Below, in pieces: positions 1,879-64,000 of a stretch of 64,000 nucleotides of DNA. This DNA comes from Sanderia malayensis (lineage: Eukaryota > Cnidaria > Scyphozoa > Semaeostomeae > Pelagiidae). Each line of letters begins with the position of its first letter. The stretch's first letter is position 1. The translations under genes were made by a program, and so were the position numbers. A model generated the notes under the pieces. The model saw nothing but the letters and a program-made list of their open reading frames with translations. It made no database searches and was not told the DNA's origin. The stretch lies in the NCBI GenBank assembly GCA_013076295.1, contig RQOL01000532.1, forward strand, positions 3,534,001 to 3,598,000. The letters are read 5' to 3'.

Positions 1879-4800
1879 TCAAATTTCACATTCGTCATTT
1901 TCAAACTCGAGATTGGCCATCCCACGAGTGTCGTTATCGAGTTCACGATAAAGAGGTTCGTGAGTGACAGGCGGCTGTTGTCCTCCTTCACAGCGGAGAG
2001 ATGAAGCGTCGGACAGTTTCTCGTAGAGTGCATCGTTATTCTGCACCGCGTTTGGGGTGGTGGCTTGGTAAGCGTCCGGCACTACGGTTTGGTAGACCGG
2101 TAATTGGTGTGGTGCGGATTCAACTTCTGGGGTTCGGCTATAACGACTTGGAGGTGGAACCGGGCGCTTTCTGCCTCTTGGGGGCTTTGCAGTGTCCAGT
2201 GGTTGATAGTGGACTGGTTCAGGCTGATTGACGCGACTCAAAGGTTGATAATGGCCATCAGTCTCTTGATAAACTGAAGCTTCAGTGTCTACCTCCTTGT
2301 AGATCGGCTGTTCGGTATCTACCTCTTTGTAGATCGGCTGTTCAGTGTCTACCTCCTTGTAGATCGGTTGCTCAGTGTCTACCTCCTTGTAGATCGGTTG
2401 CTCGGTATCTACCTCCTTGTAGACTGGTTGTTCGGTATCTACCTCCTTGTAGATCGGATCAGATGTCTGTAACAAAGCAAGGACCATCGCGATCAAGCAC
2501 CCGTCCGATTTAACAATATCAAGTCAAAAGCAATTTGAAACTCAACTAAATACGGGGGGTTATGAAACCATGCTTTCAAATCGATTCTTTCAATAATCCC
2601 ATTAATACAACCCCCGGGAAACTTCTATGAAAAATAGAAGATTTATCGACGCTCCAGGGGGGTTGCGCATTAATTGATTACCTCGTAACGTGTTTTCGAG
2701 GGTTCTGCGTTTTCGTAGTTACGTGAAAACCTTGGCCTTCCTGTCGTCGCATTGCACACCAGTTGTTCCTCGTACATTGGATTGCCTGCAATATAAACAA
2801 AAACAAACAATAAATTTCATTTCTCTCTTCCATTGTTACTTTCTATTGTCCTATTGTTCCTTTCTATTGTCATATTACTTCTTCCTATTGTAGTATAGTG
2901 TCCCATCTTTCCCTCTATTGTCCTACTGCTCTTTTCCATTGTCCTATTGTTACTGCACCATTGTCTTTATTACGCAGTTCAAGTTGAACTCTTTGCAATC
3001 CTTTGGCATTCTAGGACAGCTTCGCTTGTCCATATGGATTACTGTCAAGTCAAATACTCGCCTAAACTTTGCTTTACAGAATCATTACTGGTGTCCGCCA
3101 CACTGATCCTTCCATTCAGGTAACCATTAGCTGTCAGTTTTAGTGTCAAAGTCTCCTGAAAAGGAGAAAGAATTCCAATGAAGAATACTTTAGCTGTTAA
3201 CCTATACAGCAAATTTTCTGACTTTCAAAGCCAATTATTCCTTTTTAGTGACGTCACCGATCACGCGATACTAAAGCGAAATTTTTTGGCCCATCTCGGA
3301 TTCTGAATCTCCATGCTTAAAAGTATATAAATCCAGTGAGATCATTTAAGTTAGGTGAAAAATCAGATTGCTACAGCCATTGCCCTGCCTATGGTGCAAA
3401 CAATATTAAACATACATTTTAAAATTTGAGAATAAACTTAAAAGGTGGGGGGAGATTTTCAACTAAAACGTTGTGTCAAAACACATTGCTTCCTATTTCT
3501 GGTAAAATTCGTGTCGCATGAAGCTGTAACGAAACTTTACCAAAAACAAGACGTGGGCGTTGACATGAAAGAGCATTGAAAATGAAAACACATCGAAATG
3601 AAAATGATAATACCCCTCTTTCTTTCTGCTGTATTGGTATATATTGCTGTAGATAATGTTCAAAGAATGGGGAATTTTATTTTCTATTAATTAGTCCACC
3701 AGGCCACGTTTGATAAATGCCAAAACAATATCAGTTTTTCATACGAAACTGACATTTTTGTGACATGACCTGGGTGAATAGCACATGGTAGATTTCGATT
3801 CATTTCGCTTTAATAAACTGTTTTGCTTATCCTCGCCTGTTAACAACGCCTCTGAATGTGAAAATATGTACCCTTTCCCCAGTTAATGGCGAGGCTTATC
3901 TGAATTAAATATCGTGAAATTGATTTGTTATTGTCTGCTAGAAAGTAAAAAACGTTTACCTTTCTTTTCGCATTGGTGGTGGTCTTTGCACTGAAATAAA
4001 GAGTCAACTTCGAATTAACATTATTAACATTCTTAATATGCAAACTCCAGACCATGTCTGTAGTGAAAGGGTACAAAATGAAGAGGGAAAAATCCTGATT
4101 ATGTCTTTATTTATGTCGAACAAAACAATTTTTGTGATTTGGTAGGAAACAAAAACAGAGAGATACCGGATAGAGCGAGCAGAGCGGCAAAGATATCGTT
4201 ACCACTGCACGTTAAAAAACAAAGTTAGAGAAAATTCTTACCGTCTTTTTCGCATGTAAACAATTATTAAAATGAACACAACGGCAGCAATACCAAGGCC
4301 GACAACTATTCCAGCAATAGTTGCAGCGTTTGATGATTTTCCTTTGTTCTCTCCAGAACTTGGGTCCGAATATACTGGTTTGGTGGGCGTGGTATTAGGA
4401 ACAACAACCTGAAAACGAAAATAACAAGGATGAAGCTGTTGTTATTACACCTTTACATTACTATTACGAATGCAGAACATAATTTTCAACAAATAGGCCC
4501 AAAATTTTATAAAATCAATCGCTGCTCAATAGCAATTGTAACAATTATCACATTGTCAGCTAAACTATTATGTATTTGACATTGTAATATTTTGATATCA
4601 AAAATACTTCTCACCATAATGAACTAAATTCTTAGTCCCTCGATCCCTGGCATATTACATTTTACCAACTGTTTAACAAGCCCCATTTGAGACAGGGGTG
4701 GTTTCTTATAAAGGTTAGCCATCTCACGATTGCATTGTGTGAAGTCTATATTAATTTAGGAATGAGGGCTTGGCAATCACAACAAAAACAACCATGCATC

Positions 4801-6702
4801 AGTAATATCAGTGGTACAAGTTAAAATTAAAACAACAAATTACCACTGATGACGATGCTTTGCTTGTCGGTGTTGCTTTTGCAAAATGAGAAAAAAAACT
4901 GGACGAGGAAGATGGTCCTGGGTATCTTGTTGTGGACGAAATGGCAGAAGCAACACTGCTTGTTTCCTTGGAAATTATCACCGAAGATTGTCTGCTTATG
5001 CTGCTCGGCATTGGTGAAGTAAAACTGGTTTTGAGAAGGTAAGAGGTTGTGTGTTGGGTAGAAATTATTTTGGACTTTGAAGAAGGGTAACAGACTGTTG
5101 ATGTTTTTTGTAAGCTGTATGAATATTTTGATGAAGTTGATGGGGTTGTTTTGGAACGATGGGCCCATCTTGTTGTCGGTGTTGCATATGTTGTTTTTAA
5201 TACCTTTGTTGTGCTTTTCTGCTTCATTGTTGATGGTGATGATGACAGAGAAGGGTTGACAGTTGTTGTTGGTCTTGCATTCGGATCGGGTAATGGATCT
5301 GAAGCAAGAATTTTATGTAGACTAAAAAATAGCATTAGTAAGAAAGATTCACAATCTTGATGTGCTGCATACATTGAGCTTATTGCATTGTTTATTGCAC
5401 TGTCTATTTACTTTTTGTAAGTCTCTGTCAATATTGATTGAGGTATTGAAAAATATAAAAATGTGTAGTGGTTGAAGTAATTACAAGATTTATGCTTACA
5501 AGTTCTGCTCCCAGTAAATTTGAGAAGTAAACAGTGATCCTGATAATTTCCCTTGCACTTGCCACTATTGTGCAATTTGCAAGCTTCTACTTTAAATTTG
5601 AAAAGTAAGCCTTTGTACTTCATGGCTGATAAAGATGAATCTGATGCTGTCCACTAAAAACAAAATGAAAAATAGATTTAGAAAGTTCATCTGTAATATG
5701 GATAGCAAATAACCTCTAAGGTCACAATTTTCACAATTCTGAGTCATGGTGAAAAATTTAGGAAGGCTTGCCATGTTCAATTACTTGTCAAAGAACTGCT
5801 CAGGGTGAAATTTTTGAGGTTTTTTGTTGTAATTTCTTGTCAGAAATAATGTAATGCATTCAACACACATTCAACTATCAACTTCCTTTATTATAACTAT
5901 ATCTGCAATAGAAAAACTTGAATTTGCTCCACAAACCTTCAAAACTCCGGTTGAAGATAAAGTGAACAAATTTGATTCTTCTGGATGCTGCCATGTTATA
6001 TTCCAATACCAAAGTTCTTTTTTCTCATACTTATTATAAAAATTTGTTGAATGTTTCACTTGACCAATAATCTGATTGCTAGATAAGACATTGGGGTCAA
6101 TTCTTTTTACATACGATTCTCCAGAAATGTAAAACTCACATCCTGATAAAAAAATAAGACATTCATATTACAAGTTTTCTTTTCAGTGTCTCTTCAAATT
6201 TGTTTATGGCAGAAGTTGATACGTGTTGGGCTAGGGCAATGAATGTATAATAATAACAATAATAATTCATCATATTTAAACAAAACATAGAAGATATAAA
6301 CACCGGAAGGACTCGCATCAATAATCAAAATAGTAGAACTGAAAACTTTAATAAAACTTTAAAAAATTAAACATATATCGATAACGTACCTTCATCGCGG
6401 CTATACTTGCCATAATTATGCATGCACTTTGGAGTACGGGTGGTACCATCAACCATGAAAGTGTTACCCCAATCACATTGACAATTAGTTCCATTATCTT
6501 GAGAACTGCCTTGAATCCCACCACAGTTTGTTACCCTTATGACTCCACTTGGTAAATCTATTCTTTTAGAGAAGATATCTCCATAATAGCCATCATTAGG
6601 CCTGTCAATTATGAACCCATCAGCAAACCCAAATTGACCGAAAACCAATACAAAAACCAGTAAAAGCATAATGTATTCACTTACATCATCTTCAATATTC
6701 AT
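1879..6702 (-). CDS. Type I membrane receptor-like protein with multi-tyrosine tail
   Basis: Nine phase-consistent exons: 6702-6390, 6142-5937, 5653-5500, 5298-4844, 4408-4242, 3990-3960, 3155-3125, 2785-2682 and 2466-1879, giving about 682 residues. The ATG at 6702 is followed by a hydrophobic signal peptide (residues ~11-27). The ectodomain (to ~224) carries nine cysteines. Residues ~225-376 are a Ser/Thr/Pro-rich mucin-like stalk, and ~405-428 form a membrane span followed by RKRR. The cytoplasmic tail has 17 tyrosines: MYEE, NYENA (a YxN Grb2-type site), six YKEV repeats at 493, 503, 513, 523, 533 and 543, two YQPL, then LYEKL and LYREL near the C-terminus. It also has RKRPVPP, an RxxPxxP SH3-type ligand. 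The layout suggests a surface receptor or scaffold that recruits SH2/SH3 proteins after tyrosine phosphorylation. That role is inferred. I do not recognise the ectodomain family. Confidence 0.8.
2281..2460 (-). repeat. Six 30-bp coding tandem repeats (YKEVDTEQPI units)
   Basis: Six units of exactly 30 bp lie inside the last exon of the receptor gene, recognisable on the plus strand by 'tctacctc' at 2288, 2318, 2348, 2378, 2408 and 2438. Each encodes ten residues centred on YKEV. The units differ only at a few bases, mostly silent, and one has Val for Ile before the Tyr. A seventh degenerate unit follows as SVYQET. Near-identity at DNA level points to recent expansion or homogenisation. Confidence 0.95.
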
Positions 6703-13902: not shown

Positions 13903-16900
13903 CTGATAAAGATAAGTCACTAGATTAAGCAATGCACAATGTCCTTAACTCCTTTTACCTTACACCACCATACACAACTTCGAAATCTATAACCAAGCAG
14001 GCTAAAACCGGTCTATTGGGCTATGCGTAATACCGTAAATCCTCGAATAAGCCCCCGGGGGCTTATTTGCAAAAATGAATTTTTGAGTGGGGGCTTATTC
14101 GAGGGGGGGGGGGCTTATTTGCAAAAATGATTTTAGGTGGGGCTTAATCGAGGAGGGGGCTTATTCGAGCGTGGGGGCTTATTCGAGGATTTACGGTATG
14201 TCACAGTAAGGGTTGCAAGGTATACTCGTCTTGCAATGAAAATACAAACATAAAAACGATGCATACCTCATTATCAACACAGTTGATTTCAACCTTCGAT
14301 GGGCCTTCAATGGACAGACCAAGGCCTCCATAGCCTGCATCGCGTGTGTCGACAATGAATTGCATTTTCGTGTTGACAGGTCCGCCATCAAGCCCTTTGC
14401 CGTATGCTCGAACCTTGGATGCGTCCGGTTTGGTGGCTGGCAGATCCTCTGGTTTCACGATCACTTCGTACGGACTGTTCTGCACATGGCGACCATTCTT
14501 CTTGATGTTCAGCAAATGCTTTCCGACTTCTTTGGGCATGAACGAGACGACGATGGTTCTGTTGTTGGGACCAGCCTTCAGATCGACTGGCTCTTCGCTT
14601 CCAGAAGGAGATGTCACAGTGGCCTTTAGGAAAGGAAGGTCTTCTGGTACTCTGATTCCGGGTATTTCTAATCCGATGGCACATGGTTGTCCGGGCTTTC
14701 GTGGCTTGGCATCTTTGACCATGACTTCAATGGGACTTCCTTTCACATGTCTGCGATCTTTCTTGATGTTGATCAGATGTTTTCCGGGCTGGTCTGGAAC
14801 AAACTTAACTGACAGAGTATTGTCCGGTCCTGCCTTTGGTTCCAATGGATCTACACTGCCATCCGGCCTTTCAAGTGTGCATTTCAAGTACTTCAAATCT
14901 TCCGGTATGCGTAGATCTGGTAATTCAACTGCTACGTCACAAGGACTTCCAACAGTTGGGGCTCTGTCTGGTTCTGGTTCCATCTCAACCATTACCAGGA
15001 ACGGGCTTCCGTTGACATTTCGTCGGTTCTTCTTCACTGTGATGTAATGCTCTCCTGGCTCGGTTGGGACGAATGATAGATTCAAAGAGTTGTCATCATT
15101 GGCTTTGACTTCAAGAGGTTCCTCTTTGCCGGTTGGTCTCTTGAGAGATGCGGTGAGATCTTTCAGATCACGTGGCAAGCTGATGCCATCAATGTCGAGA
15201 TTGACGTCACACTGCTTTCCTACAGTTGGTGCCTTCGAAAAAGAATTGTCAAGTTTGAGACAAGTGTCTGCCATGGGAAAAACACGTCTAACTATTAGGT
15301 CAGCAAGTGCACAATGTGTACTGTGGAAAAAGTTTCAATGAATCAAAGGAAATTAATACGGGGTGACGCCTATAAACGGCATTTGGCTGATGCAGAACTT
15401 ATTAAATATTCTCAGAAAAACATGATAAATTGAGCAATGGTTAAATTTCAAAATTAGATTTTAAACTTAAACTGGAAAAAGATACAGAACAGAAATGTTA
15501 GAGAAATCTTACAGGTAATAGGAAAACAAAACAAAAAAGGAAAAGCTGAAATGACCAAGAAAGAAATGAAAACAGCAAAATGAATCGGGCATCCAAGAGA
15601 TAAAACAAGCAGGTGTAAATTAAAGTAAGAATTCGAGATACAAGAAACAGTATACGTGTTGAAACGAAGGTCGAAAGAGAGTTAGACGACGTCAAAATCA
15701 TGCAAACCCACCTTGGATTTCTCTTCATCTTCAACAATGATCGTGATTGGGCTTTGTTTAATGGGGCGGCCATTCTTCTCGATGTCAATCAAGTGTTTGC
15801 CCGTTTCTGTCGGCGTGAAATTCATCGATAAAGAATTGTCTGGGCCAACGCTCAGGTTCAGAGGCTCCTTCTTGCCAGTCGGTCGGGTCAATTTCGCCTT
15901 CAAATACGGAAGATCTTTGGGCAAATTGATGTCGGGCAGAACCAAGTTCACATCGCACGGACTGCCAACAGCCGGTGACTTCTTTGGTTCGACTCCTTCG
16001 ACAACAACCTTGAATGGACTACCGGGAACCTGAAGGAATGAAGACAAGAGAATTACCAAAAATAAATTAGAAGCCCAAGATATAATATCATTTGCAGTCA
16101 GCAAAACAAGGGATTATAGCTATTTACAGACAATACCATATATACAATATGCGTTGGTGGTTAAATAAATGGCAAACATTTGATATATTTTAGGCTCACT
16201 ATTTGAATTTATCAAGCAATAGACTGCTTTGTTCGCAAAACATTACCCCGCAACTCCGGCAGAAAATATACCGAAAATTGACACACTATTGTCTACCTAT
16301 GGTCTGCACAAAAATATACGGTATTAAAAAGAAGATATAGCATAACAAGGTGACACTGGACACTCAAGAGACACTTACCTCTTTGTTGTGCTTCTTGAGG
16401 TGAAGAAGGTGGTCTCCGGATTCCTTTGGAGTAAAAGCAACAGAAAGGGTGCTATTTGGTCCTTCTTTCACATCCAATGGCTCAGTTTCCCCAGATGGCC
16501 TGGCCAACACGGCACTCAGGTATGGCAGATCCTCTGGTATCTTGATGCCAGGAATCTTCAAGTTGGCATCATGTGGGCTTCCCACGGAGGGCTTCTCTTC
16601 TGGGAAATCATCAAGGAAGTCTGGAAGAGATTCTTGGGTATCTTCCGTTGCTGGCACGATATCCTCTGATATAGGCTGATCTTCAATAATCACTGAAAAG
16701 GGGCTGCCCTTGACATGTCGCTTGTCTTTCTTAACACTGACCAAGTGCTCGCCCGGTTCTTCTGGGACGAATTTCACGCTCAGAGAGTTGTCTGGCTTTA
16801 AGCCAATATCAATCGGCTCTTCTCTTGTTTTCGACGGTCTCTTCAAGCTTGCAGTCAATCGATCCAAATCTTCAGGTAACTTCAAATCGGGGATATCCAA

Positions 16901-19900
16901 GCCAAGATCACATTCGTCTCCGACTTTAGGCTTCTTTGCCCCATCATCAACGACCATAATTTCAATCGGGCTTCCCTCAACTGGCCGTCCATCCTTTGTG
17001 ATGTCAATGACGTGCTTGCCAGGTTCTTTAGGTACAAAGCTCATGCCAAGAGTGTTGTCGGGATTGGCTGTTAGCTCAATGGGCTCCTTCTTACCATTTG
17101 GTCTCGTCAGCGTACCCTTGAGCTTCTTCAGGTCTTCGGGTAGGTTCAAGCTTGGCAGATCCATGTTGATGTCGCATGGGTTTCCAACAGTTGGAGCCTT
17201 GCTAGCCTCGGCATCTTCGACCATGACATTGAATGGACTACCCTTGACAGGCTTGCCAGATTTCTTGACATGAATCTTATGTAGACCAGGCTCTTTTGGC
17301 GTGAAAGAGACAGCAAGGCTGTTGTCTGGGTTGGCTTTGACAGGCACCTTTTCTCGCTTTCCGTTCGGACGCTCGAGAATGGCAGTCATTAACGGCAAAT
17401 CGTCAGGCAAGTTGACATCAGGCAGCTCTAGATTAACATCACATGGATTACCAACAGTTGGGTTCTTGGCTTCTGGGGCTTCATCTACCATGATCTCGAT
17501 TGGGCTGTCTTTAATTGGTCTTCGCTTCTTCTTTATGTGAATTTTGTGTAAGCCGGGTTCTTCTGGAACAAATGAGATACCGATTGTGTTATCTGGGTTG
17601 GCTCTGATGTCAACTGGTTCACGCTTTCCACTTGGCCTTTCAAGAACTGCACTCAAATCAGGAAGATCGTCTGGCAATGTAACATCAGGGAAGTCAAGAT
17701 TCACATCACATGGATTGCCAACACATGGTCCCTTCTTTGGCGCATCTTCAACCATGATCTTAAACGGACTGCCAGGAACCTATAAACAAAATGGGCATAA
17801 TTAATAAACAGTTACGCAGTTGCTTTGACATATAGTAAAATGCTTTCGGCTAAAAATAAGGACCCAAGGTTAAGCGGTGTTGCAGAACACCACTCATTGA
17901 TAACGATTAGATGAAAAGCAAACAAAATTTGTCATAAACATCACAGAATAGCGTTATAAAACTGAGAAAAATAACCAATTTGACCGTTACAAAAATCTAA
18001 ATCAAATAAACGTACCTCTTTGCGATTCTTCTTGATATGGAGAAGATGCTCTCCCGGCTCTTTTGGAGTGAATGCAACAGAAAGAGTCTCATTCGGTCCT
18101 TCCTTCAAATCGACAGGTTCAGTTTCACCCGATGGCCTGGCCAACACACCCTTCAAATATGGCAGATCATCTGGTATCTTGATGCCAGGTATCTTCAAGT
18201 TGGCATCATGTGGGCTTCCCACGGAGGGCTTCTCTTCTGGGAAATCATCAAGGAAGTCTGGAAGAGATTCTTGGGTGCGCTCTGTTTCTGGTACGATATC
18301 TTCCGAGACAGGCTCGTCGCCAACCATGACATTGAATGGACTACCCTTGACAGGCTTGCCAGATTTCTTGACGTGAATCTTATGTAGACCAGTCTCTTCT
18401 GGCGTGAAAGAGACGGCAAGGCTGTTGTCTGGGTTGGCTTTGACAGGCACCTTTTCTCGCTTTCCGGTCGGACGCTCCAGAATGGCAGTCATAAACGGCA
18501 AATCATCTGGCAAGTTGATATCAGGCAACTCCAGATTAACATCACATGGGTTGCCAACAGTTGGATTCTTGGCTTCTGGGGCTTCATCTACCATGATCTC
18601 GATTGGGCTGTCTTTAATTGGTCTTCGCTTCTTCTTTATGTGAATTTTGTGTAAACCAGGTTCTTCTGGAACAAATGAAATACCAATTGTGTTATCTGGG
18701 TTGGCTCTGATGTCAACTGGTTCGCGCTTTCCACTTGGCCTTTCAAGAACTGCACTCAAATCAGGCAGATCGTCTGGCAATGTAACATCAGGGAAGTCAA
18801 GATTCACATCACATTGATTGCCAACAGTGGGGTTCTTTGACTCCTTTGGTGCTTCTCCAACCATGACCTTGAACGGACTACCCCTGACTGGCTTTCTCTT
18901 CTTCTTGATGTGTATCAGATGAAGACCGGGTTCCTTGGGTACAAACGAAACAGACAATGTGTTGTCCGGATTGGCACCAACTTCGCATGGCTCTTTCTCT
19001 CCATTCGGTCTCTCCAGCACGGCAGACAAATCCTTCAGGTCATCTGGCAACTTCACATCAGGCAAATCAAGGTTAACGTCACACGGGCTGCCTACAATAG
19101 CAGAAGGAGGGCCTTCCACTTCATCACCGGGTACCATGATGACATACGGGCTGTCCTCAACGTGCTTCTTATTCTTCTTGATATTGATGATGTGTTTACC
19201 GGGCTCTTCGGGTACAAACGTTACCGAAATCACACCATCGGGAGTGACATCGATGTCCAATGGCTCTTTTTTACCATTCGGTCTTATGAGAGATCCTTTG
19301 AGCTTCTTCACGTCCTTCCTGTCGACATCGGCAAGCTCGAGAGGAATCTTGCATGGTTTGCCTACCTCTGGTTTGTCGCGGACGAGCAGCGGTACTGGAC
19401 TTCCTTTGACTTCCTTGCCTCGTTTCTTCAGGTGAAGATCGTTCTTGCCAGCTTCCACGGGGGTGAAATTGGCCCTCAGTGTGTCATTAGGTCCCTTACT
19501 CAGGTCCACAGGCTCATCGTCTTTAGTCGGAGATGCCAAAACACCTGAAAGAACTGGTAGCTCGCTTGGTACGCGTACGTCATCGGGAGCCATGTTAAGC
19601 TGGGCTTCTTTACCAACTTCCAGGATTGGTTCCTCGTCAACAACTTTGACTTTCAACGGAGCTCCTGGGATATCTTGTCCTGCGAAGCTTATGAATATGT
19701 CGTAAGTTCCTGAAACAATAAGAAATGCATATAATAAATTTGTATTCAAATATATTTAAATCCGACCATCGTTGACATTTGTCACCTTTTTACACAACAA
19801 CACGGCAAATACCGTAGCATTTCGAATAAACACAGGGGCGTATATTAAATACTTTGAATTTTAGAACGGGCCTATATAATAAAGAGCGTGTAATAGAAAT

Positions 19901-29200: not shown

Positions 29201-32200
29201 TTCCGAGTCACCGTACTTAATGCAGATGACGTATTTGCCAACGTACTGTGGAAAGTACTGACAGGAGTAGACTGAATTTCCAGAGTCTTCGATTTTAACC
29301 TCGGTCTTCTTGTTTCCTTTCGGATCGATGATATCGATGTGCACATTGCCGTGTCCGGCTCCAGTCGCAACGACTTCGAAATTCGCCCAGCGGTTTACGC
29401 TAACGCCGTACGGCTCGAGACCGGGGCCGCGGGCGTGCACCTTGGACGAGTCGAGGTCAGAGCTGACCTTCACACGGAATGGACTGTTCGGAATGTGGTG
29501 ACCTCCGATTCTGATATGAACATCGTATGTACCTGAAGGGCAAAGAGCATGCGTCACAACTACTGATAAAAGCTGTGTGATGAAAGTGTACACAAAGGGT
29601 TGACAAGCGATTCAATCCGAGACTTCATGCAAAGAATCTTATTGTGGACGAGTTGCTGAATCTGAATGTGCGGCGGAACCAAGTCGCGATATAAATAAGC
29701 AGACATTATAAAAGACACTCGAACTTGCTATTCAATATGAAACAAGCAAGTGAACCTGAATCTTGATATTAGCAAGTGAATCTTCGTCACTTCAAGCTTC
29801 AATCTCAGTCTGAATAACATACCTGGTTTTTCTGGCAAGTACGTGCAGGTGTAAGTGTTGTCATGGTTATCAGTGATGTCACAGTCCAACTGCTTCCTTC
29901 CGGGACCCAACACGTGCACATTGACCTTTCCTTTCGATGATCCGGTCGCTTCAACGAAAAACTCAGCCGGATTATTGGCAACAAGGCCTTCCGGTTCGAT
30001 ACCCGGGCCCCAGGCACGGCACTTGGATGCATCGGTCATCTTCTGCTTGATCGGTGCACCTGGCTTGCATTTGGCTTCTGGGAAGTAGGACACGTACGTC
30101 ATAACACTGAGTTCGTCGACATTCGGATTCGTGATCTCTTCGGGTGTGATAATCTGCGGAACGAGGAAAATAAATATTGGATCCGCAAGAACGTGGACGG
30201 GGAGCGGAGGTAAAAATTGTCTAAGACACAGAACAGAAACAAAACAAGGCCAAAACAAACACAGTAACATGACATGCGCACTAACCTGTGGAACACCGAG
30301 CCAGTCTTCGGCTCTCTTCATAGCCTCGGTTGCATTGTCGAGCTTGTTATTAGGATCCATGTCCTCCCATTCGGGAAAGAGGCCGGGAGCGGCGGCATCT
30401 ACCAAACTGGCCAATGCAATACCGTCATTCCAATCGGTGGTGAAATTTCTCACCTTGACCTGTGCGAAGAGACGAAAGCGGCTGCGTCAGAAGATGAATC
30501 TATGTCAGACAACACAATAGTTAACAGTCTACGCCCCAAGCAATCCTAAAGTCCACAGATTGAAATCGTCTTGATGCGGCTGTGGTGGAATCCCGACAAA
30601 AATACCATGAACGGGGCAAAATACCACAGCTCCTAAATCATACATAACGAAGCTAGTTAAATCAGAAAATCAGACGCTCATTTCCTTACACTAAGAAGTT
30701 CGTTACAAAGAGAAATTGGCCATGTAAAAATGTCAGCAGTTCAGTCGTTACTGCATATCTAGGGTTGCCATTAATACTACATGTCAGGCATGTAGCTGCA
30801 GGGGCACGGGGGGCTGTGTCCCTAAACAAAAATTCTGAGTAAAGTTTACCCCCCCCCTCTGGTTACAGTTACCATTTACAAGTAAAGAGAATAACGCCCT
30901 TTTCAATCAAAAAACACGTCATCCACTTATCTCTCTCTCCCCTCCTTTACTCGCATTTGTCCACCCCACTTTATATCCATAGCTACGTGTCTATGTAATC
31001 ACATGAATAGTGTGACGATGATATGAAAAATCAATGTGTTCCTCCTACCTCTGGAGGCAATTTGCTCTTGACCCATCCCATCAGAGCTTGTTTTGGTGTG
31101 ATGTTCTTATCAACTTCGCCATCATCAACATCCATCATCGGCATACTGATTTGGTATTTCAAAATCAACGTCCATATCAAACCGAGAATCAACTTCAGGT
31201 TTCCCTTCACGATATCCCCGGCATCTACGTGGAAAAGAACAACAAAAACATGAATATGTGCTTAGGCCAAAAAAAAACCAACACCTTGTTCATTTCCAGC
31301 CAGCCACCCCTTTAGTTGGCCAGTAAGTTAACGAATTGATAATGTCCTCTTCGGCCACACTATACTATATGTTACTACACTATTACTGTAACGAATAGAG
31401 CAAGCTGTTGTTACTTTAGACCAATTTTCAAATCAAATGGCTTTAAAAGCTGTTACGGTGACTGTAAGCTCCTACCTCCACCAGGCTTGGCAAGATCTTA
31501 GATACAGCACTGGAACATTGATTCTACCTGTCTGTTCAATCATCTATTTCTTAACTATATAATGGCATATGCTACGTAAATATAACACGTTTTGCATCAA
31601 GTAAATATCGGAGAAATGTGCGGCTATGAGTCTGTGCTGGAAAGTGTTGGCAAAGTAAATATTGCAATAATGGCGCTAAATACTGCAAGTTTACAAGTGA
31701 AAACGTAAGTATTTGACAGCAAAATCTTGGCTGGAATCTCCCGCACTTGGCTGGAATCTCCTGCACTACGTAATTTAAAGCGGCATTGCAAAATACAGTA
31801 GCTATATTTCATTCAACATCCCATTAGCCTATAATTTTATAACAAACCAATCAAAAACAGGGGATTCGCATGGCGCAATAAAGATTCCGTGACGCGATTG
31901 GTTAATTCTGAGCCAATCGCGAACGAGCAAAATCACCAATCCCATAAGTGTACCAAAAGCGGGTTCCACTGTGGCACAACCGCAGACATAATGTACATAT
32001 TTCAAGGTGTGGTATGGATACTGGCTAGACAGTTTGACCTTGGTGCTAACTGCGCAGGTCTAAAGTGTTGCCAAGAGATTTAGCATGGGAGCAAAGCCAA
32101 CGACAAATCCAATAAAAACATGGGCCTAAAACAACGGGGCTTTGCGGTAATACAGCGATAATCAACGATTAAAGATCTGGTTGTGATGCCAAGCGATTTG

Positions 32201-53865: not shown

Positions 53866-54349
53866 TGTGTGCGTTACTGCGCATGCTGACCACTTTTCTC
53901 CTCCGCACGGGCTAACCTTAACCCTAACCCTAAGCCAATAACGCAGCCATCAAAGACACCATTACGTAATACATGCTCCTGCGCAGTACCAATGTGTGCG
54001 TTACTGCGCATTCTGACCACTTTTCTCCTCCGCACAGGCTAACCTTAACCCTAACCCTAACCCTAACCCTAACGCTAAGGCCAATGACTCAGCCATCACA
54101 GACACAATTACGTCATATATGCTCCTGCGCAGTACCGATGTGTATGTTACTGCGCATTCTGACTACCTTTCTCCTCCGCACACCCTAACCCTAACCCTAA
54201 GGCCAATGCCTCCGCCATCAACGACACCATTACGTCATATATGCTCTTGCGCAGTACCAATATTTACGCTACTGCGCATTCTGACGACCTTTCTCCCCCG
54301 CAATGGCTAACCCTAACCCTAACCGTACCCTTAAGCCCTTAAAAACATT

Positions 54350-62182: not shown

Positions 62183-64000
62183 TTATTGATCTTCTTCAGC
62201 GTTGGCCTCATCTGTCACCTTGTCAACGAGGTAATCAATGATTCCTTGATCAAGTTCTTGTTCTTTGTTGCAACCTTCAGCATCATCACAACAATTCTCT
62301 TGCTCTTCTTCGTCCTTGTCGGCTTCTTTGATCTCGATCAGTCTGGATTCACCATGTTTCAACAGGAAGAATTGCATGTCGGACAGGCCATTCTTTCTCA
62401 GGTTTTCTTGAAGGCGTTGTGGGGGCTCCAGGTAGAACTGCAAACAAAGGCACGAAATTGCATTAATCATAAATAACTTTATCAATTAATGATATTGTTA
62501 ATCCCTTTTTTAATGTTCCACTCAAAAAAGGGATTCCAATATGCAAACAGTTCCAGATATTTTCTTCTCGAGATGCTGTCAAAGATCTTTAGTGCTATAT
62601 GCAACAAACAGATTCAATTTCAAGCTAAAACATTGTTAAGCCATTCCACTTGTCACTTTGTAATGATCAACATATATTTTGTCTTCATTGAGCCATCAAA
62701 GCCACCATTATAATGAATCTCATAACAAAGAATGTTGATTCGAAGATAGACCTATCCCCACATGTCACTTTTGCATGTCTGCATTAATTGCTATTTATAC
62801 AGATGTGAGCAATGCATGCTTACCTCATTACTGAAGTTGAATGTTCCCCATGAGATAGCCAAAGAGCACATGGCCAACAGATCTTGATGAATCTTCACAG
62901 CTTCCTCTGGGGTAGAATTTCCATAGGAAAACTTGAAATCGGGTGAATAGCCACCAATTGGAAGAGCAGCCATGTGGAATGGGCCGTATTTGCGGCCGAT
63001 GGACTTGAACACTTCACAGTAGCCAGTGGCACCAACAAAGAACAGCTTGTACCTTGGAGACATGATCACCCAGCTGCCCCAGAGAGAAGCATTGTCGTCA
63101 TCTGTGCTCCTGCTGTGATAGTTCTGCGAGGGGCAGAAGACAAGCTTGAATTGGGTAACTGCAGTGTCTTCTTCATTGTCAATCTTTGAGTAGTCAATGA
63201 AGTCGACAATATCTTCCTTCCACCAGTCCATCTCAACTGTGTTCACACAACCAGCCTTCTTCATCCACTCTTCCACGCCCGCTGGCACGTACCACAGAAG
63301 CATCTCACCAAATCTCTCGTTCAAAGCTCTGACAGACGGCAAATCCAAGTGGTCAAAATGAGTGTTGCTGATCAACACGGCATCAATTCTGGGCAATTTT
63401 TCAACATCATAGACAGGTGGTCTGTAACGCTTCTCAGAGCTTGGATGGTAGTATCTCGTGCCAAGGTTGCTGAAGTTTGGATTGGTCAAAATGTTGACTT
63501 TGTCCAACTGGAAGAGGACAGAAGCGTGGCCAAGCCATGTCACCCGGATGCCATTCTCTGGTGGATTCTCAATGCGGTTTGGGTCAGGTTTCATCAGTTG
63601 CATCAATGGCTCGTCATTCAATTTCTGGTGGAAAAAGATTTAAATTGTAATTACATTGCAATAATATTCACAAACAACAGTGTCCAGCCAGTAACCACAA
63701 ACAATTTTGAGACAATCCACACTTCATGTACACTCTCAAATATTCTCAGTTTGCCCTATATGAGTTTAATCAACTAATTCAATTAAAAGGTATGGTTTAT
63801 CCACAACTTTAGTACAAGATAACAAGATAATAAGTTTAAGTATCACAATAACATTGCATGCCAGTCAATAGTGATCAAATGTTTGACAGCACACCCAACA
63901 AGTTTATCAACAGAATTTGCATACCTCTTCACTTGGAACTTTACTGTTGTCTGTAGTAAAAGCATACTTGAAGTTAGTCCAGCCAGTTGGGGGCACCTTG
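62183..64000 (-). CDS. NAPE-PLD family protein, apparent pseudoenzyme (5' end outside window)
   Basis: Three visible exons: >64000-63925, 63624-62824 and 62437-62183 (stop TAA). They give 376 or more residues of a metallo-beta-lactamase-fold protein closest to N-acyl-phosphatidylethanolamine phospholipase D. Family strings are WLGHASVLFQLD, DHLDLPSV, LWGSW, GPFHMAALPIGGY, PEEAVKIH, WGTF, YLEPP and LKHGESR. Key residues are changed. The HxHxDH zinc motif reads NTHFDH, so the first His is Asn. The later ligand positions read QNYH where QHW is usual, GATGYC where GDTGYC is usual, and ISWGTF where IHWGTF is usual. The catalytic-His position before PEEA is Asn. By human numbering from memory these are H185N, H253N, D284A, H343S and H321N. 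H187, D189 and H190 remain. The C-terminus is extended by a Glu/Asp-rich tail of roughly 50 residues. Hydrolase activity is therefore unlikely. Confidence 0.88.

Follow-up and report, generated by a model that had tools for sequence, protein, structure and literature searches.

The 64,000-nucleotide stretch of the Sanderia malayensis genome analyzed here (contig RQOL01000532.1, positions 3,534,001 to 3,598,000 of the forward strand, assembly GCA_013076295.1; hereafter the window) carries, on the minus strand at 6702..1879, one gene whose predicted product is a receptor with an orphan ectodomain. Its tail contains a match to the immunoreceptor tyrosine-based activation motif (ITAM) and, beside it, six YKEV units. 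We think it probable that this orphan protein is a receptor of the ITAM type that additionally carries an array of docking sites, functioning like the tails of Draper/Megf10 or of immunoreceptors. An earlier note, made from the sequence alone, had proposed a multi-site phosphotyrosine docking tail on a type I receptor, and this proposal is now supported by the sequence together with a second gene model.

Our own splicing at consensus sites gave nine exons and a stop-free frame of 694 codons, in which all eight introns are GT-AG. Two alternative boundaries for exon 7 were rejected because each introduced stop codons. The sole true match in public predicted proteins was P0001, the EukProt gene model gene6246-6965_t (624 amino acids [aa]), which joins the signal peptide, membrane span, and tail in one protein; the P0001 record, as displayed, does not say whether the model rests on transcripts. 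A ten-exon splicing of the window reproduces P0001 letter for letter, which indicates that the genome behind the model is this one or nearly indistinguishable from it. P0001 and the nine-exon version differ in two splice choices, both of which keep the frame. P0001 has an intron at 5203-4967 within the Ser/Thr-rich exon 4, which removes 79 residues (44% Ser/Thr), and its exon 7 runs to 3062 on a GC donor, which adds 9 residues. These differences may represent isoforms or prediction choices, and the exon count may be 9 or 10; the 79 in-frame codons at 4967-5203 (minus strand) would then mark a possible stalk-length isoform. The nine exons counted in the earlier note may thus be ten. Of the two candidate start codons, methionine 12 (A at -3) looks better than methionine 1 (T at -3).

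The predicted protein begins with a hydrophobic signal sequence (residues 12-27; 6669-6622), followed by an ectodomain (residues 28-224) that holds 8 of the 12 cysteines of the whole protein and two N-glycosylation sequons. A long stalk (42% Ser/Thr across residues 229-400) leads to one strongly hydrophobic span at about residues 406-427 (4321-4256), which contains GxxxG and no charged residue and is followed directly by basic residues. This layout, all of it on the minus strand and in one protein supported by P0001, is the one that the earlier note had drawn, and it supports a type I single-span cell-surface receptor as judged from sequence. The tail past the span had been underestimated at 254 residues with 17 tyrosines; it measures 267 aa (276 in P0001) and carries 18. 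AlphaFold modeling of the 624-residue P0001 without an alignment returned a mean predicted local distance difference test (pLDDT) score of 37.9, with a pLDDT of 70 reached by only 19 of the 624 residues. Scores peaked in the helix of the span (block means of 74) and in that of the signal sequence (up to 68). Confidence was low for the tail, which is probably disordered.

Residues 569-589 of the tail match the textbook ITAM consensus and have an acidic residue (D569) at position -3, where such a residue extends the consensus. As given in excerpts of PMC7242328, the consensus sequences are YxxI/L-x(6-12)-YxxI/L for the ITAM and S/I/V/L-x-Y-x-x-I/V/L for the inhibitory counterpart (ITIM, immunoreceptor tyrosine-based inhibitory motif). 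Chance levels for ITAM and half-ITAM sites were calculated from 20,000 composition-preserving shuffles each, with the whole tail or with the array removed. The ITAM with an acidic -3 residue occurs once; shuffles of the whole tail give a mean of 0.008 (P = 0.008), and those of the tail lacking the array a mean of 0.003 (P = 0.003). When the acidic residue was not required, the result was weaker (P = 0.042 and 0.023, respectively). Half-ITAM sites of the form D/E-x-x-Y-x-x-L/I occur three times in the tail, at residues 572, 647, and 672 (P = 0.001; 0.0002 with the array removed), and an acidic -3 residue is present on three of the four tail YxxL sites. Half-ITAM matches also occur at Y40 and Y150 of the ectodomain, where docking is impossible, two matches that illustrate the shortness of the motif. 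When PDB sequences were searched with the ITAM region, up to an E value of 10, one chance match and no CD3 were returned.

The remaining motifs were less distinctive. The ITIM consensus is matched once, at Y586 inside the ITAM, and not above shuffles (P = 0.41). The immunoreceptor tyrosine-based switch motif (ITSM) has the consensus T-x-Y-x-x-V/I, and no copy was found in the tail. YxN occurs twice, NPxY once (NPMY, residues 466-469), and R-x-x-P-x-x-P once, and none of these counts is individually above shuffles. The earlier note had listed two YQPL, LYEKL, LYREL, YxN, and RxxPxxP sites, all of which are present. Its remark that the YxxΦ pairs are not a textbook ITAM, ITIM, or ITSM is true of the YKEV pairs but, as regards the ITAM, wrong for Y572/Y586, where a consensus ITAM and the ITIM match had been overlooked along with NPMY and two half-ITAMs.

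The six YKEV motifs at exact 10-residue spacing, first pointed out in that note, yield five exact Yxx[ILV]-x6-Yxx[ILV] pairs compared to a mean of 0.02 in 2,000 shuffles. This excess arises because a 30-bp tandem repeat (89% matches) underlies the array. Comparison of the six units revealed eight variable columns, six of which are third codon positions, with a mean ratio of nonsynonymous to synonymous differences per site (pN/pS) of 0.084. All differences within YKEVDTE are silent, and both the frame and YKEVDTE are kept in all six copies. This silent-site bias favors constraint on the array, although the evidence is modest because repeats homogenize and most of the changes are transitions. 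The context of YKEV, Pro-Ile/Val-Tyr, is like that of EPIYA without matching it: the protein has no exact E-P-I-Y-A site, and only the P-Φ-Y core is common with EPIYA proteins. Outside the array, P-[ILVM]-Y occurs three times (NPMY, LPVY, and EPLY) versus 0.18 expected (P = 0.0004), and the context [DEQN]-P-[ILVM]-Y is found on 8 of the 18 tail tyrosines.

The assembly that holds the window (G000) totals 184 Mb in 918 contigs, and no second YKEV-type array was found elsewhere in that genome. Of the 8 matches to the YKEV pattern, six were the array itself, and a reversed control matched 18 times; an isolated match is thus uninformative. In the reading frames inspected, neither the two DNA matches to the pattern outside the array (L041 and L048) nor the three weak tail matches (L038-L040; E values of 0.66 to 8.8) had a tyrosine tail. 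Two further tail matches, L002 (G000 C829) and L003 (C648), were rejected as minisatellite DNA with several stop codons. The minisatellite in both has a period of about 30 bp and closely similar flanks, which may represent haplotype copies or a duplication; by reading of the sequence, the flanks resemble an organic-ion transporter.

Does the ectodomain belong to a known family? The 224-aa N-terminal part had no match up to an E value of 5 in either Pfam or PDB sequences. Within its own genome, at E values of ≤10, it matched its own three exons only (3 candidates scored), i.e., one copy was found. Among 5.8 billion proteins, it matched nothing except P0001 (228 candidates scored). In the searches of the 5.8 billion proteins, the whole protein was scored on the 7,989 most word-sharing candidates and the tail on 4,986; shared 5-residue words are required, and a very diverged relative could escape. 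The sole other protein-search match, P0002 (E = 0.4), was rejected as a low-complexity resemblance after its sequence was read. Pfam returned three matches for the nine-exon protein and seven for P0001, all under the cut-offs, with sub-threshold ErbB and syndecan span matches among them. No Ig domain was among the Pfam matches, and the structure model, at its mean pLDDT, is too poor to argue against a divergent Ig fold. Within the reach of the searches made, the ectodomain therefore appears to be an orphan, in line with the earlier note, which had recognized no family and suggested the profile search reported here; it may still be a divergent form of a known fold.

We then looked at candidate signaling partners in the same assembly, where an SH2 search listed 50 matches; the partner genes are described here from their domains and exons. 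At C571:2364500-2365284, two adjacent SH2 domains have as their best PDB match the tandem SH2 domains of SYK (E = 7e-49), followed by ZAP-70. The alignment to SYK covers both SH2 domains and the linker, the F-L-x-R-type strand arginine is kept in each domain, and the same strand has tyrosine-kinase exons some 1.7-2.2 kb farther downstream. On contig C655, an SH2 exon continues into ankyrin repeats and is followed by another SH2 match and by kinase exons, which is the Shark layout. The matches of its SH2 part (best 60 of 593) were to ZAP-70, and the gene is named Shark because of the domain layout. The genome also holds a Csk-like SH3/SH2 pair (Csk best, E = 9e-16; Grb2 next, 3e-13), an SH2 pair with SHP2 as best match (E = 7.5e-33), and SH2-kinase exons that by reading are Src- and Abl-like. 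These data suggest that the same genome has likely genes for all the kinds of enzyme required by the receptor model. At C777:330220-366424, there is a cluster of three SHP2-like genes, each with paired SH2 exons and then tyrosine-phosphatase exons. At C616:1643070-1651272, two Csk-like genes adjoin, and the pair is repeated on C248, possibly the other haplotype.

Several known systems resemble this receptor in part. With CD3 gamma/delta it shares the ITAM geometry, and the YQPL half-site also occurs there; however, no Ig domain was found here. Hydractinia Alr proteins are Ig-like. As described in excerpts of PMC12065747, Alr and the Botryllus fester co-receptors have tails with hemITAM, ITIM, or "core" Y-x-x-I/L/V motifs, and the fester co-receptor ectodomains are Ig and sushi. 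The likeness to both is that of an invertebrate receptor with Y-x-x-I/L/V-type tail motifs; the difference is that no Ig domain was detected in our protein and one gene copy was found in the genome. Draper/Megf10 carries an ITAM and an NPxY in a tail that is phosphorylated by Src-family kinases and read by Shark or Syk, according to passages of PMC8092387. The present protein is like Draper/Megf10/CED-1 in being a single-span receptor with an ITAM and NPxY in its tail and with Syk- and Shark-like kinase genes both in the genome, but it has the six-unit YKEV array, a Ser/Thr stalk, and no detected EMI or EGF-like domain, neither being among any of the Pfam matches of the nine-exon protein or P0001. 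By this ectodomain test on the predicted sequence, it falls outside the Draper family. In portions of PMC3593179 and PMC3561454, EPIYA-type sites of Pragmin and p140Cap are described as binding Csk once phosphorylated, and bacterial effectors, whose disordered regions carry EPIYA repeatedly, are described as thereby permitting promiscuous SH2 binding. The jellyfish protein shares with these the P-Φ-Y sites, here putative docking sites for SH2 proteins, and in the bacterial effectors such sites are likewise repeated and disordered; its sites, in contrast, are not exact EPIYA and lie in what appears to be a membrane-receptor tail of the host itself.

Receptors with ITIM or hemITAM motifs have been published from invertebrates before; of interest here are the orphan ectodomain and the YKEV array. 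Outside vertebrates, excerpted accounts describe ITAM/ITIM-type signaling for receptors of allorecognition, which are Ig-type in Botryllus, and for engulfment receptors of the Draper type (PMC12065747, PMC8092387), and Syk is reported in sponge and Hydra in the excerpted text of PMC2820527. A literature search judged by titles (8 of 17 papers listed) turned up no receptor-borne EPIYA or YKEV array, and a second one returned 0 papers. An unrelated ectodomain on an ITAM tail beside Syk-/Shark-like kinases would support the idea of a repeated convergence of unrelated receptors on this pathway. The six-fold P-Φ-Y-K-E-V array would be a clean case for multivalent SH2 docking and a natural host comparison to the bacterial EPIYA repeats.

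How might such a receptor work? We propose that a ligand would cluster the receptor and so make the tail, which is probably disordered, accessible to a Src-family kinase. Once phosphorylated, Y572 and Y586 would form the ITAM, to which a Syk-type (or Shark-like) kinase would be recruited by its pair of SH2 domains. The array of six P-[IV]-Y-K-E-V units, together with the other P-Φ-Y sites, would provide a high-valency platform for SH2 proteins, e.g., Csk- or SHP2-type enzymes, which once docked could set gain and shut-off. NPMY may add PTB-type docking, and the two YxN sites may add Grb2-type docking. The gene structure, the topology, the motifs, the silent-site bias of the repeat, and the kinds of partner gene can be read from the sequences; tail phosphorylation, each binding step, the ligand, the cell type, and a role in recognition or immunity are what we infer from them. 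A bolder version, which we consider unlikely, is that of a lineage-specific receptor in which a new extracellular fold goes with an independently gained complete ITAM and a tandem EPIYA-like array. If true, one tail would unite the Syk-activating and Csk/SHP2-recruiting halves of an immune-type switch, and bacterial effectors, the chief known carriers of tandem EPIYA sites, would have a host-side counterpart.

Several observations weigh against the ITAM-type interpretation. Short motifs arise by chance, and the ITAM P values are modest and were computed after the sequence had been inspected. The two YQPL sites may be a small duplication. YKEV itself matches no known ITAM, ITIM, or strict EPIYA site. 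If transitions dominate, about 1/3 of changes would be silent, and six of eight then has a P of about 0.02 (an arithmetic estimate). Finally, neither the ectodomain nor the tail searches yielded a relative from a second species.

Could the tail serve endocytic sorting instead? In this main rival explanation, the YxxΦ sites (YKEV, YQPL, YEKL, and YREL) would bind AP-2 and NPMY would bind PTB-type clathrin adaptors, which would make the protein a constitutively recycling scavenger or uptake receptor that is not kinase-coupled. YxxΦ and NPxY are sorting signals, the former (Φ = L/I/M/F/V) fits 11 of the 18 tail tyrosines versus about 3.0 expected, NPxY is present, and a stalked ectodomain suits uptake. 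However, one or two sorting signals are normally enough, which leaves six identical copies without a ready explanation, and the acidic -3 residue on three of four YxxL sites and the P-Φ-Y context point toward kinases and SH2 domains. We regard sorting as the main task of the tail as improbable, and the two activities can coexist in one tail. Somewhat more doubtful is an inhibitory or tuning receptor, whose EPIYA-like array would mainly recruit Csk or SHP2 and damp Src-family signaling, leaving the ITAM-like pair incidental. Phosphorylated EPIYA/EPLYA sites bind Csk or SHP2 in the excerpts of PMC3593179 and PMC3561454, and the [DEQN]-P-[ILVM]-Y context on 8 of 18 tail tyrosines, the fit of Y586 to the ITIM, and the Csk- and SHP2-type genes in the genome are consistent with such a role. 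Yet the array has no strict EPIYA, its +1 residue is Lys instead of Ala, and the lone ITIM match, unlike the ITAM and half-ITAM sites, does not exceed shuffles. That the array is a minisatellite which expanded neutrally within a disordered tail and has no signaling role of its own seems very improbable to us. The 30-bp repeat, the frequency of other tandem arrays in the window (33 rows, some overlapping), and the lack of relatives to demonstrate conservation speak for such an expansion, but YKEVDTE and the frame are constant despite silent differences, and the P-Φ-Y context is common to three tyrosines beyond the array.

Table 1. Predicted exons and tail motifs of the receptor gene (window coordinates)
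Feature	Position	Strand	Content
Exon 1	6390..6702	-	Start codon(s), signal peptide, first Cys-rich part of ectodomain; also in P0001
Exon 2	5937..6142	-	Ectodomain; GT-AG, in frame
Exon 3	5500..5653	-	Ectodomain, Cys 198, 206, and 214
Exon 4	4844..5298	-	Ser/Thr-rich stalk; two pieces in P0001, 5298-5204 and 4966-4844
Exon 5	4242..4408	-	End of stalk and membrane span
Exon 6	3960..3990	-	Juxtamembrane segment, basic
Exon 7	3089..3155	-	YLN site (3122-3114)
Exon 8	2682..2785	-	NPMY (NPxY), 2783-2772; YEN, 2717-2709
Exon 9	1879..2466	-	Bulk of tail through stop codon
YKEV array	2281..2460	-	Residues 502-561, [DQ]P[IV]YKEVDTE in six units of 30 nt
ITAM	2197..2259	-	Residues 569-589, D569-G-H-Y572-Q-P-L-x10-Y586-Q-P-L
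RKRPVPP	2152..2172	-	R-x-x-P-x-x-P SH3-ligand-like site; count not above chance
Half-ITAM DALYEKL (Y647)	2014..2034	-	
Half-ITAM EPLYREL (Y672)	1939..1959	-	

Upstream of the receptor gene lies a filamin gene (7436-30486, minus strand), with a CH domain in the frame 29728-30486 and many filamin repeats down to 7436. It has its own stop codon about 730 bp ahead of receptor exon 1, and its link to the receptor is one of proximity only. Two of its frames, 16364-17779 and 17941-19755, share near-identical long stretches, which suggests that repeats of an unusual type were recently duplicated inside the gene. Farther along, 62791-63639 (minus strand) encodes a metallo-beta-lactamase superfamily protein (Pfam Lactamase_B_2) that is NAPE-PLD-like by reading, and at 53912-54322 CTAACC (TTAGGG-type) stretches within 122-146 bp tandem repeats form an internal telomere-like repeat.

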